Shown here: one piece after another, positions 14,625 to 58,025 of the stretch
Layout of the letters: every line of letters starts with the position of its first letter
Numbering within the stretch: position 1 is the first letter of the stretch
NCBI RefSeq assembly: GCF_964019755.1
Contig: NZ_OZ026469.1
Location: forward strand, 186,001 to 250,000
Direction of reading: 5' to 3'
DNA: 64,000 nucleotides
Source of the DNA: Spiroplasma endosymbiont of Polydrusus cervinus
Lineage (GTDB): Bacteria; Bacillota_I; Bacilli_A; Mycoplasmatales; Mycoplasmataceae
Translations under genes and position numbers: made by a program
Notes under the pieces: model-generated
The model's database searches: none
What the model was told of the DNA's origin: nothing
What the model saw: the letters and a program-made list of their open reading frames with translations, nothing else

Positions 14625-15542
14625 GTGAGTAAAAAAGTTATTTTAATTGTTGGACCAACAGGGAGTGGTAAGACTGACTTATCAATTAAGATTGCCCAAA
14701 AATTTCATGGGGGGGAGTGTGTTAATGTTGATGCAACCCAAATTTTTAATGGTTTAAATCTTGCCACCAATAAAATAACACCAACGGAACAAACGGGAAT
14801 TCCACATCATTTATTATCAACAGTTGATTTAAAAGATAATTATTCAATTAAGACTTATCAACAAGAGGGACGTAAAATATTAGAGAAATTGTGAGCTAAA
14901 AATAAGCTTCCGATTGTTGTCGGGGGCAGTGGTTTATATATTAATGCATTATTAAAAAACTATTGCTTTTCTGATCAGGGGCGTGATTTAGAATTGGTTA
15001 AAAAATATGAGCAAGTTTCTAATGATACTTTATGAGAAAAGTTAGCCACAATTGATCCACAAGCAAGTGCAAAAATTCATCCGAATAATCGCAAACGAGT
15101 TTGACGGGCATTAGAATATTATTTCCAAACGGGGACCTTAAAATCATCGAATGATCATCATCACAATGACTGGTATGTTGAGCCATATATTATTGGATTA
15201 TTACCCGATAAAATCGAACTTCACCAACGCTTACATGACCGGGTATTACAATTAATAGCGCGTGGTTTGTTTGCCGAAGTTACTGCAGCATATGAGTATT
15301 GTGACTATGATTTAACCAAGCAAAGTATGAAAATTATTGGTTGTCCGGAAATTGTTCGTTATTTAAACGGTGAACTTTCATATGAAGCAACATTAGATGC
15401 AATGGTACAAGCGAATAAGATTTATGCTAAAAAACAAGTAACATGGTTTAAACATCAATTAAAAAATGTTCATTGATATTCATTTCATTATGCACAATTT
15501 AATGATCTTTGCCAACAAATTATTCTTGATTGTATACTGTAA
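14625..15542 (+). CDS. miaA: tRNA dimethylallyltransferase
   Basis: 305 residues from GTG at 14625, preferred over TTG at 14619 because GAGG lies 9 bases upstream. MiaA adds a dimethylallyl group to A37 of tRNAs reading UNN codons. Seen: Walker A GPTGSGKT, the [15 protein letters not shown] substrate loop (usual DSMQVYRGMDIGTAK), [18 protein letters not shown], and NNRKRVWRALE. Native sequence ends about LCQQIIL; the last four residues DCIL and stop come from the foldback element at 15531, which provides TGTATACTGTAA. Loss of the final residues may be tolerated since catalytic parts are N-terminal. Confidence 0.9.
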
Positions 15543-15611
15543 ATACTAAATCATAAAAAGTTAACTATTGTTAATAGTTAACTTTTTATGATTTAGTATT
15601 TACAGTATACA
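15531..15611. repeat. IS30a foldback element, 81 bp
   Basis: A near-perfect palindrome from TGTATACTGTAAATAC to GTATTTACAGTATACA, with both ends of the TGTATACTG type but the short centre of the left-end family (AGTTAACTATTG TTAATAGTTAACT). It closes miaA. Confidence 0.85.
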
Positions 15612-26460: not shown

Positions 26461-26540
26461 TGTAAATTGTAAATATCAAATCATAAAAAGTTAACTATTA
26501 ATTTAGTTAACTTTTTATGATTTGATATTTACAATTTACA
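26461..26540. repeat. 80-bp IS30a left-end foldback element
   Basis: TGTAAATTGTAAATATC to GATATTTACAATTTACA, an almost perfect palindrome with centre TTAACTATTAATTTAGTTAA. It separates the phage tail genes from folD; flanked by CT on both sides. Confidence 0.88.
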
Positions 26541-33392: not shown

Positions 33393-33472
33393 TGTAAATT
33401 GTAAATACTAAATCATAAAAAGTTAACTATTAATTTAGTTAACTTTTTATGATTTAGTATTTACAATTTACA
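33393..33472. repeat. 80-bp IS30a left-end foldback element
   Basis: TGTAAATTGTAAATAC to GTATTTACAATTTACA palindrome, same family as 26461-26540. Confidence 0.88.
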
Positions 33473-34870: not shown

Positions 34871-35398
34871 ATGGCAGTATTTATTATTGTTGAAGGAAAA
34901 ACTGATACAGCAAAATTAAAAAGTATTTTTCCGGAAATTAAAACAATTGAAACTAGTGGTAGTGGAATCACAACTGAAAAATTAGCATTTATTAAACAAA
35001 TTAGTTTGAATAATAAAGTAATCATTTTTACTGATCCGGATTATCCTGGCCAAAAATTACGCCAAACTATTAGTGATTATTTGGATAACAATTGTCTGCA
35101 TGCTTTTATTAATAAAAATGATGCAATCAAAGGTAAAAAAATTGGCATTGCTGAAGCATCTCCAGTAGCAATTAAAAATAGTATTAATAATTTAATTAGT
35201 TTTACCAAGCAAGTAGATAATACCTTATGCTGAAATGATTATATTAATTTGGTTGATTCAAAAAGTAAACGCGATAAAATTATTAAATATTATAACTTAA
35301 TGCCAACTAATAATAAAACAACTTTTAAATGACTAAACTATATGAATATTACCAGCCAAGATTTAATTAATATTTTAGAGGAGAAATGTATACTGTAA
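34871..35398 (+). CDS. rnmV: ribonuclease M5 (5S rRNA maturation), C-terminus altered
   Basis: 175 residues, SD GGGGTGAAAGG. The Toprim fold is clear: IIVEGKTDTAKL with the catalytic Glu and IIFTDPDYPGQKLR with the DxD pair. RNase M5 trims 5S rRNA precursors. The family normally continues with an L18-binding C-terminal domain, present here as KSKRDKIIKYYNLMPTNNKT. The last residues CIL and the stop come from the 187-bp foldback starting at 35387, so some tail may be missing. Confidence 0.85.
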
Positions 35399-35573
35399 AA
35401 TTAAATCATAAAAAGTTAATAACATTATAACAAATTAAAAATAAAAAACAATAATCACAAAAATATTAAATTAAAAACGCTGTTTTTAATTTAATATTTT
35501 TGTGATTATTGTTTTTTATTTTTAATTTGTTATAATGTTATTAACTTTTTATGATTTAATTTTACAGTATACA
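35387..35573. repeat. 187-bp IS30a right-end foldback element (MITE)
   Basis: Two arms of about 88 bases, TGTATACTGTAAAATTAAAT... and its inverse, around the centre ACGCTGTTTT. The arms equal the non-coding right end of IS30a. No coding sequence. The right arm contains TTGTTT (35509-35514), 16 bases, TATAAT (35531-35536) pointing at the mreB at 35604; the left arm ends rnmV. Confidence 0.88.
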
Positions 35574-47765: not shown

Positions 47766-47845
47766 TGTAAATTGTAAATACCAAATCATAAAAAGTTAAC
47801 TAAATTAATAGTTAACTTTTTATGATTTGGTATTTACAATTTACA
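47766..47845. repeat. 80-bp IS30a left-end foldback element
   Basis: TGTAAATTGTAAATACC to GGTATTTACAATTTACA; it truncates an IS30a copy and lies 30 bases before the helicase gene. Confidence 0.88.
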
Positions 47846-49295: not shown

Positions 49296-49375
49296 TGTAA
49301 ATTGTAAATACCAAATCATAAAAAGTTAACTATTAATTTAGTTAACTTTTTATGATTTGGTATTTACAATTTACA
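49296..49375. repeat. 80-bp IS30a left-end foldback element
   Basis: Same palindrome as 47766-47845, flanked by AT on both sides; it truncates the phage-like gene that follows. Confidence 0.88.
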
Positions 49376-52380: not shown

Positions 52381-53382
52381 TTATTTAATATTTTGTAAAA
52401 ACATTGCTTTTGCACTTATTCAATTCAAACATGGTCGAAGTTTATCATTTATAACATTAACTACTCAATCTATCATTTTTTGACTAACATTATTAAAATC
52501 AGTTCCCTTAGGGAGTCAATATCTAAATTCGCCATTCATATGTTTAATTAATGGTTTTTGTTGTGGTTTACCGGGATCACAAAAATAAACTTGTGTTTCA
52601 GAAAATATTTCCATTTCTCTTCATTTACTAAATTCTTTTCCTCTATCAGTTATTATTCCTTTAATTTTCCTAATTAAATTATTATTTATAACAATATCTT
52701 TAAATTTTGTTACAATTTCGCTAGCACTATGATTTTTCAATTTCACTGCAAAGTAATTATTACTTAATCGCTCAACTAATACCAAACAACTAGATTGATG
52801 GTGTTTTCTCATAACAGTATCCATTTCAAATCAACCAATACTAGAAACTTTATTTTCAATATCTCAAATTGATTTAAAATTAAGTAATTTTCCACAATTA
52901 TCTGGTTTTTGTTTTGTTTTATATTTTTTACCACGATGGGGAAAATTTTCTTTTCTTAACCCTAATTTTCCTAAGCGAATTCATTTATATAAAGTTTTAA
53001 CACAAGCAGAAAATTTAACACCAAATTCTATAAAATAACGATAAATCAATTGTTCGGGTGTATCGTGGTATTTATTAAATCTTGTTTTAATAAAATCTAA
53101 CTGCTCTTTTGTAAATTCAGGTATTTTTTTAATACATTTTTTATGCTTTTGTTTATAATCTTTGTGAGCATCTGATGGATTATAATCTTGTATATTTTTA
53201 AATCGCTTAATTTCTCTTTTAACAGTATTAATCCCGCGACCCATTTGTCTTGCTATTTCAGATAAATTAATCGTGCCACTTTTCTTTTTACAAGTATCAG
53301 ATAATAATAAATTTTTAAAAAAATATCGTTCATCAAATATTAAATATTTAAATTTTCTCATTTTTATACAAATTCCCTTCAT
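52381..53382 (-). CDS. IS30b transposase
   Basis: 333 residues without a stop. N-terminal HTH (GTINLSEIARQMGRGINTVK), EMDTVMRKHHQSSCLVLVER with the first D, GIITDRGKEFSKW with the second, and CDPGKPQQKPLIKHMNGEFR towards the E region, here His/Met where IS30a has VERINRD, so the catalytic Glu may be lost (LIKHMN). IS30 family, distinct from IS30a at roughly a third of positions visible. A fragment of a sister copy is at 38980. Confidence 0.75.
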
Positions 53383-54187: not shown

Positions 54188-54479
54188 TGTAAATTGTAAA
54201 TACCAAATCATAAAAAGTTAACTATTAATTTAGTTAACTTTTTTAAGTTAATTTTTAAGTTAATTATAGGAGGTTGAAATTATGCAAATAAAGCAATATT
54301 TAATTTTGCGGTCGTTAGTAAAAAGTATGGTAAAGATATTGTTATTAATACTGTCAATAAGATTGCAAATGATATTGAAATTAAAAAGTAAAGAATAAAT
54401 TATCCCGCGTAATTTACAATCTTCAATTAACTTTCAATTATTTCCAACTGGTGGTTGTTGTGGTTTGGGTTCTGGTTTA

Positions 54480-54584
54480 TTACTCGCCGTTTTTACTATT
54501 ATTTGGTTTTTCGTAACTAATTAATGATGTTGTACTTGTTGCTTTTAATCCGATTGCTCCTAAAATACTTAGCAACTTTTTCAC
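54480..54584 (-). CDS. mini-lipoprotein of IS30a, lipobox Cys lost
   Basis: 34 residues, MKKLLSILGAIGLKATSTTS then LISYEKPNNSKNGE. TAC replaces TGC at the lipobox, so lipidation is not expected in this copy. Same length and stop as 17903-18007. Confidence 0.4.
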   Translation of the reverse strand: MKKLLSILGAIGLKATSTTSLISYEKPNNSKNGE

Positions 54585-54656
54585 ACTTTATCTCCTTATT
54601 TAAAATGTTATAATTATTGTACATAAATTATAACATTTTAAATAAGGAGATAAAGT

Positions 54657-55630
54657 GTGAAAAAATATGAAAGATTAGATTTTAATGAAAGAGTAAATTT
54701 GGAAAAATTAAAAGATAATGAATTATTTAAAAAGAAAAATGAAACAATTAATATTCGAAAAATTGCTAAGCAAATGAATAGAGATTATAGAACTATTTGG
54801 CAAGAGTTAAATATGTTTGATAATATTAATGATTATAATGCTGCAAAAGCACAAAAAATACATGATAAAAATAAAAAACAATGTCGTAAATATTAAATGT
54901 TAAATTCACAAGAATTAAGTCACTTTTCTAATGAATATAATAATTTTGGTCGTTCGCCACAAAATATTATTACTTCGTATGAATTACAATATAATGTAAA
55001 ATTTGGTGTATATTTTAAAAAAATGTATAAATATATTAAATTAGGTTATTTTAATTTAAAAAAAGAAATGCTATATTTTAAAAATAAAAAAATGGGGAAC
55101 AAAATGATAATCGTAGAAAATTACTTAATATTAGAGATTATAAGCAATTTTAAAATGATTATGGAAATGATTTAAGTTTTAGTGGAATTTGAGAAATGGA
55201 TACTCTTGATTGTGGTAATTTTTATTTGTTAGTTTTAGTAAATCGTAAATCAAAAATACTTTTTTATTATATTTTATTTAGTAAAAAGGCAAGTATTGTA
55301 TTAACAATTTTAATGAAAATGATTAAACAAATTGGTATTAGTAAATTTAGTTGTATTTTAACCGATAGAGGAAAAGAATTTTATAGATGAAAAACAATAG
55401 AAAAACACTTTAAAATAAGAGTTTATTTTTGTGATCCTGGTAAACTTCGTCAGAAAGCATTAGTAGAAAGAATAAATAGAGATATAAGGCGTTGATTGGC
55501 TCAAAATGAGCCATTAATTAATATTCGTAGTAGATTAAAATCTATTTTAGATATATTAAATACCACAATTAGACCTTGCTTGGAAAATTTTACATCAAGA
55601 AAATATTTTAAAAAAATTTTTTTAAATTAA
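54657..55630 (+). pseudogene. IS30a transposase, almost complete but broken
   Basis: GTG start. TCA-to-TAA after KKQCRKY (54894) and a 17-base loss near 55091 break the frame. Catalytic parts MDTLDCGNF, CILTDRGKEFYRW and ALVERINRDIRRW are all visible, the DDE core of IS30 enzymes. Confidence 0.8.
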
Positions 55631-55815
55631 ATTAGTATTTGTTAAGATTAGTAAAATTTATTTTTTGTTGTATTTAATTTTATAATTTTAAAAATAAATA
55701 TTAAAAACAATATTTTTAATTTAATATTTTTTGTGATTATTGTTTTTTATTTTTAATTTGTTATAATTTTATTAGCTTTTTATGATTTAGTTTTACAGTA
55801 TACAAAGGGATAAAT

Positions 55816-57798: not shown

Positions 57799-58014
57799 TG
57801 CATACTGTAAAACTAAATCATAAAAAGTTAATAAAATTATAACAAATTAAAAATAAAAAACAATAATCCAATGGAATGCCCCCTATATAGTAGACACAAA
57901 AATAAAAACATTTGTGTAAACTAGAAATGGGGTGCATTCCATTGGATTATTGTTTTTTATTTTTAATTTGTTATAATTTTATTAACTTTTTATGATTTAG
58001 TTTTACAGTATGCA
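57799..58014. repeat. IS30a right-end foldback with IS3b mini-element inside
   Basis: Arms start TGCATACTG and end CAGTATGCA, both carrying the same T-to-C change, so the palindrome stays perfect. Its centre is replaced by a 70-bp IS3b mini-element (57872-57941). The right arm offers the outward promoter for asnS. Confidence 0.85.
57872..57941. mobile_element. 70-bp IS3b-derived miniature element
   Basis: TGGAATGCCCCCTATATAG to AATGGGGTGCATTCCA; both ends are IS3b termini, with only the left-end leader between. Confidence 0.7.
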
Positions 58015-58025
58015 GGAGAAAAAAT

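Follow-up and report, generated by a model that had tools for sequence, protein, structure and literature searches.

The 187-bp palindrome at positions 35387–35573 separates the 3′ end of rnmV (ribonuclease M5) from the 5′ end of an mreB gene, within a 64,000-nucleotide stretch of DNA (the window; genome 186001–250000) of a chromosome represented by one contig of 1,120,781 bp, which gives a good reading in translation with TGA as tryptophan. The palindrome consists of two right ends of the insertion sequence IS30a and nothing else, exactly as an earlier note on this DNA had described it, with 92-bp arms that are 100% complementary around a 3-bp centre. Five palindromes of 80–81 bp had been described there as pairs of left ends; all five are perfect units of this kind, with the one correction that the copy at 15531 has right-type outer tips (TGTATACTG) around a left-type interior. 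The full IS30a copy has one end of each type, as also noted, though its transposase reading frame is broken. Units with two left ends are hereafter termed LL and those with two right ends RR. The features of the window are as follows:

15531–15611, no strand assigned: LL palindrome with right-type tips, 81 bp, between the convergent genes miaA and groEL
26461–26540, no strand assigned: LL palindrome, 80 bp, with a private, mirrored change TATC, upstream of folD
33393–33472, no strand assigned: LL palindrome, 80 bp, with a mirrored TACT change, adjoining a transposase fragment
35387–35573, no strand assigned: RR palindrome, 187 bp, each arm an IS30a right end
47766–47845, no strand assigned: LL palindrome, 80 bp, upstream of a gene for a DEAD-box helicase
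49296–49375, no strand assigned: LL palindrome, 80 bp, on the downstream side of that helicase gene
54188–55804, plus strand: full-length IS30a, comprising a left end with hairpin, a broken transposase gene (rve, PF00665, in 55196–55627) and a right end
54212–54244, plus strand: hairpin inside the left end (fold of 54188–54260, −12.4 kcal/mol, compared with −46.5 for an LL palindrome)
55700–55731, plus strand: imperfect hairpin inside the right end (AATATTAAAAACAATATTTTTAATTTAATATT), seen in the sequence; RR copies have an identical centre
55757–55767, plus strand: extended −10 motif TGTTATAAT pointing outward, 37 bp in from the right tip, likewise seen in the sequence
57799–58015, no strand assigned: RR palindrome whose tips are mirrored TGCATACTG and which abuts the ribosome-binding site of a gene resembling those of aminoacyl-tRNA synthetases

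IS30a is assigned to the IS30 family by the rve/DDE core of its transposase (PF00665; 39.7 bits, cut-off 32.6) and by abutted left and right tips with a 3-bp spacer in the relative G013 (G013:C1:646659/646663, L225), the IR-IR junction typical of IS30-type elements. Its two ends differ, sharing an inverted repeat of about 30 bp, and a small hairpin lies directly inside each. A copy at genome 1034902–1036492 retains an intact transposase frame of 329 aa. The transposase is related to the IS30 transposase of plectrovirus R8A2B, and window 54235–54416, in the left part of IS30a, is 88–90% identical to the ORF14 region of plectroviruses SkV1 and C74, so the IS and the phages have DNA in common. 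A second IS30-type transposase, distinct from that of IS30a, occupies window 52381–53382 with an intact 333-aa frame and an rve domain. Internal-deletion derivatives of IS30a of about 555–577 bp with one left and one right end, a conventional MITE form, occur in S. kunkelii (NZ_CP012424.1:13005–13559; L235:601–1155) and at several places in the relative G001. The latter is very probably Spiroplasma kunkelii CR2-3x, since the element on its contig C3 has coordinates identical to those on plasmid pSKU205. The ends of IS30a carry stop codons in all three frames, and genes that enter a tip therefore terminate in CIL, CKL or CKTKS. Solitary right ends replace gene 3′ ends at window 9507, 22059 and 27510, where the protein C-termini read KTKS, mostly CKTKS, and the palindrome at 15531 provides the stop codon of miaA.

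The palindromes are numerous across the chromosome. At least 28 LL units (80–81 bp; 26 with exact centres and two variants) and at least 13 RR units (184–203 bp) were counted, both figures being lower bounds because a limited number of candidates was scored per search. The tip motif TTTACWDTWTACA occurs 366 times genome-wide, compared with three occurrences of a reversed-motif control. At least six irregular palindromes with other architectures were also recorded, at six genome sites:

243799–244014 (window 57799–58014)
340950–341300, with a mirrored 37-bp tandem duplication
359605–359710
504994–505132
790573–790737, with an unsymmetric IS interior flanked by 59-bp mirrored arms
882313–882498

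The proposal that one transposon had given rise to two short non-autonomous families is borne out in part: both types come from the two ends of a single element of the IS30 family and are short and gene-free, but more than two structural classes exist. The centre of 57799–58015 is a second inverted repeat (TGGAATGC[AC]CCCC...), giving a palindrome nested in a palindrome, and at genome 443707 (L231) a right tip is followed by another perfect hairpin (TATGGCGTCCTGTACGATGAACCGGCAAAAAACAAT...).

Full LL or RR palindromes were not found in the 13 other genomes of the genus that were searched, in which IS30a ends, where present, are solely ordinary single ends (S. kunkelii, G002, G012 and G013). Matches of an RR query to six repeated places in G002 resembled palindromes, but the two of these inspected are an ordinary right end with its 33-bp inner hairpin. 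Scans of IMG/VR with both palindromes and the right tip gave no match, and plasmid searches returned single ends at most.

The two arms of a palindrome evolve together. Ordinary repeats would take mutations one arm at a time; here, instead, the arms change in mirror. LL arms show 34 changes from their consensus and two differences between arms of the same copy, while RR arms, compared over 82 bp, show 19 and none respectively, a total of 53 consensus changes against two between-arm differences. Mirroring extends to indels, to the 37-bp tandem duplication at 340950–341300 and to hybrid left/right tips, which are found at 15531 in the window and at genome 485251, 545883, 748852 and 882313. Many LL copies are identical to one another, and one asymmetric copy exists. 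Most RR arms match some IS right end just as closely as they match another RR unit; in the same arm comparison RR 1093673 is identical to 241804 and RR 221387 is nearest to 630695. A single amplified RR lineage was abandoned on the basis of a permutation test, which gave no support for RR arms forming one cluster (p = 0.12), so it is likely either that the units arose many times independently or that IS copies keep converting them.

The palindromes lie at rearrangement breakpoints. At the sites compared, flanking genes are not simple neighbours in related species and gene blocks stop at IS30a tips. The flanks of RR138241, RR399116, RR458038, LL641209, LL831078 and the IS at 1034902 match relatives to or near the tips and are far apart there; RR281872 forms the edge of an inverted block of about 1.8 kb, and the IS at 648844 takes the place of about 1.2 kb. 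At the 35387 unit, the rnmV and mreB flanks are joined in an orientation inverted relative to related genomes, and miaA and groEL, which flank 15531, do not adjoin each other in G012, G003 or G011. Many of these sites were picked because a palindrome was present; among 20 block edges picked independently of palindromes, nine have an IS30a tip no more than 25 bp away, compared with 4.6% of random positions (p = 1e-7). A search of the same genome for ancestral neighbours mapped few of them. The relatives, which are heavily rearranged and about 83–91% identical across aligned genes, do not show in which order the events took place.

Symmetry runs past the tips into host DNA by 5–13 bp in nine of 45 palindromes, where 0.49 would be expected (0 of 20,000 shuffles of flank pairings); the overrun is shorter than 5 bp in the other 36, and at most 2 bp in 11 non-palindromic pairs of left and right elements. 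Two overruns, RR138241 and LL641209, could be compared with a relative. The ffh-side flank of RR138241 (AAATAAAGGA) is ancestral, as judged against G012, while the opposite flank begins with foreign AAATAAA, a mirror of the ffh flank, before the ancestral sequence resumes at AGGA. LL641209 has an ancestral right flank, CATTTAA, and a left flank, CATTT, that mirrors it. In both cases, therefore, the ancestral flank is on one side only and the copied tract stops at a short match, as fold-back copying followed by a switch would leave. Target duplications of 3 bp or more were found at none of 41 palindromes and at none of 13 left/right element pairs; since the pairs also have none, later shuffling could have erased such duplications. 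The sequence TTTCTCC stands on two flanks that are now separated (genome 116554, and window 35386, which is genome 221386) and is single-copy in G012, and it is possible that this represents a 7-bp target duplication parted by a later rearrangement.

The two ends differ in gene context, RR units lying at gene starts and LL units mostly at gene ends. Tips were counted in 258 kb taken around the elements, with left and right tips treated alike, so that the gene-context frequencies are not those of an unbiased genome sample. Within 40 nt, 19 of 73 right tips have a ribosome-binding site plus the start codon of a frame 100 aa or longer, as does one of 68 left tips (p = 1.4e-5), or, for palindromic tips alone, nine of 28 and one of 46 (p = 5e-4). 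Left tips are weakly enriched at gene 3′ ends (30/68, compared with 19/73 for right tips; p = 0.03), an enrichment that is not significant for palindromes alone. By direct search, every arm of the 13 RR units carries an outward TGnTATAAT ending 37 bp from the tip; a sigma-70 scan did not flag this right-end motif because its −35 is weak. LL units fold to a stem of 37–39 bp and often follow genes. From sequence and position, the outward motif of the right ends is a putative promoter and the terminator-like hairpin of the left ends a putative terminator.

It appears fairly probable that the palindromes were made and kept perfect, and distant loci joined, by fold-back template switching seeded at IS-end hairpins in a bacterium without SbcD. 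Each palindrome would consist of one IS30a end and a fold-back copy of that end. Having copied an IS end in the course of replication or of break repair, a strand would fold back at the inner hairpin, take its own arm as template and copy the end outward. Synthesis would then move to another piece of the chromosome, either at one of the approximately 366 homologous tips, yielding a tip-exact junction, or a few bases past the tip at a short shared sequence, leaving a perfect palindrome between two loci formerly far apart. Later switching of the same kind would keep the arms identical. Hairpins are proposed as seeds because inner hairpins are present at both ends of ordinary copies, and tip-to-tip switching must be added because simple fold-back alone does not predict the 36 of 45 overruns below 5 bp. 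The unsymmetric IS interior at 790573–790737 and the mirrored tandem duplication at 340950–341300 count in favour of fold-back template switching; the many identical LL copies are also compatible with transposition. SbcD belongs to the hairpin-cutting nuclease of E. coli. It was found in 0 of eight Spiroplasma genomes, compared with 13 of 14 control genomes, and its absence would leave hairpins uncut. Rearrangements would be retained where transcription still works, with right ends at gene starts and left ends mostly at gene ends. Template switching creates and homogenizes hairpin arms in other systems (PMC8794818, PMC8604942, PMC6649704), and S. melliferum and S. citri are extensively rearranged relative to each other despite a truncated recA (PMC3563533).

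The earlier note had instead seen two foldback, MITE-like families. That like-ended palindromes were moved in trans by the IS30a transposase, with inter-copy recombination shuffling the chromosome later, accords with the proper inverted tips on both sides, the intact 329-aa transposase, the numerous identical LL copies and palindromes found in this genome and not in its relatives; the single ancestral TTTCTCC, now carried by both separated flanks, is also what a 7-bp duplication would give. This account is nevertheless unlikely, given that the 41 copies show no flanking direct repeat of 3 bp or more and no clean empty site was found among the sites compared in related species, both being among the checks the note had proposed. 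Moreover, the flanks are rearrangement junctions, RR arms resemble those of diverse IS copies and not a single lineage, private mutations are mirrored between arms and symmetry extends into host DNA. Inverted IS copies recombining at their inner hairpins, so that right flank is joined to right and left to left and the arms are homogenized afterwards, would account for the breakpoints, for RR units upstream and LL units downstream of genes and for several ancestral junctions now split with one side at a left tip and the other at a right tip. However, the arms would start as two different haplotypes, and homologous recombination would not copy flanks, so that one-sided copying of symmetry into the flank stays unexplained; with RecA also reported as truncated in two other species, S. 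melliferum and S. citri (PMC3563533), this route is judged quite unlikely.

A slimmer chance attaches to insertion of IS30a into inverted repeats such as terminators, with the palindromic flanks as its targets. According to the title of Calcutt 1999 (cited in PMC3317919), IS1630 of Mycoplasma fermentans targets inverted repeats and duplicates them, and some flanks here resemble broken stems. However, with insertion into a palindromic target both flanks would be ancestral, whereas only one is ancestral in both testable cases, and pairs of left and right elements lack mirrored flanks. Perfect palindromes are difficult to sequence, so that assembly or polishing might yield perfect symmetry, but no result supports such an artefact: a short read can span an LL unit, the copies are distinct in flanks, centres and mirrored variants, and one asymmetric copy persists. 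It is accordingly highly improbable.

The palindromes have partial counterparts elsewhere. Long perfect inverted repeats with co-changing arms, for which template switching was proposed, occur in Nematomorpha mitochondria (PMC6649704), where they lie in mitochondrial protein genes rather than in transposon ends at bacterial rearrangement junctions. In template-switch hairpins (PMC8794818, PMC8604942), one event likewise produces a perfect stem and later events restore symmetry, though these are described for RNA genes and yeast coding regions, and not for IS ends or for the joining of chromosome pieces. Yeast fold-back inversions primed at double-strand breaks (PMC10622511) also arise by self-primed fold-back synthesis giving an inverted duplication, but are chromosome-scale events in nuclease mutants, whereas here units of 80–200 bp are fixed at high copy number. 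Like bacterial IS-derived MITEs (PMC10969869), the palindromes are short, non-coding and made of the ends of a resident IS, with terminal inverted repeats common to an autonomous parent (intact at 1034902); they differ in having two like ends rather than one of each, and in lacking target duplications and, at the sites compared, clean empty sites. IS1630 and IS30, in the parts of the sources consulted (PMC3317919, PMC9333248), share with IS30a an rve transposase, heterogeneous inverted repeats and abutted-end junctions that cause rearrangements, but no direct repeats flank the copies here and LL or RR units were not found described in those parts. Of IS30-family target duplications (2–3 bp, or long as in IS1630), none was found at the 13 present left/right pairs, with one possible 7-bp case on separated flanks. 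The foldback transposon Galileo of Drosophila (PMC2775673) is similarly an inverted-repeat element at inversion breakpoints, though eukaryotic, far longer and attributed to ectopic recombination. REP/REPIN elements have hairpins tied to the RAYT tyrosine transposase, whereas the palindromes here are IS30a ends.

Spiroplasma genomes are known for extreme rearrangement, even with impaired homologous recombination (PMC3563533), and the palindromes may be a sequence-level footprint of how rearrangement can happen without RecA, through self-primed copying at IS hairpins. More than 40 perfect palindromes in a genome lacking SbcD offer a natural test bed for the speed of arm homogenization. More tentatively, it is conceivable that fold-back template switching at IS ends has largely rebuilt the chromosome out of blocks the size of genes, with RR units now acting as two-way promoters and LL units as two-way terminators; if so, a transposon would have been turned into the transcription punctuation of the genome.
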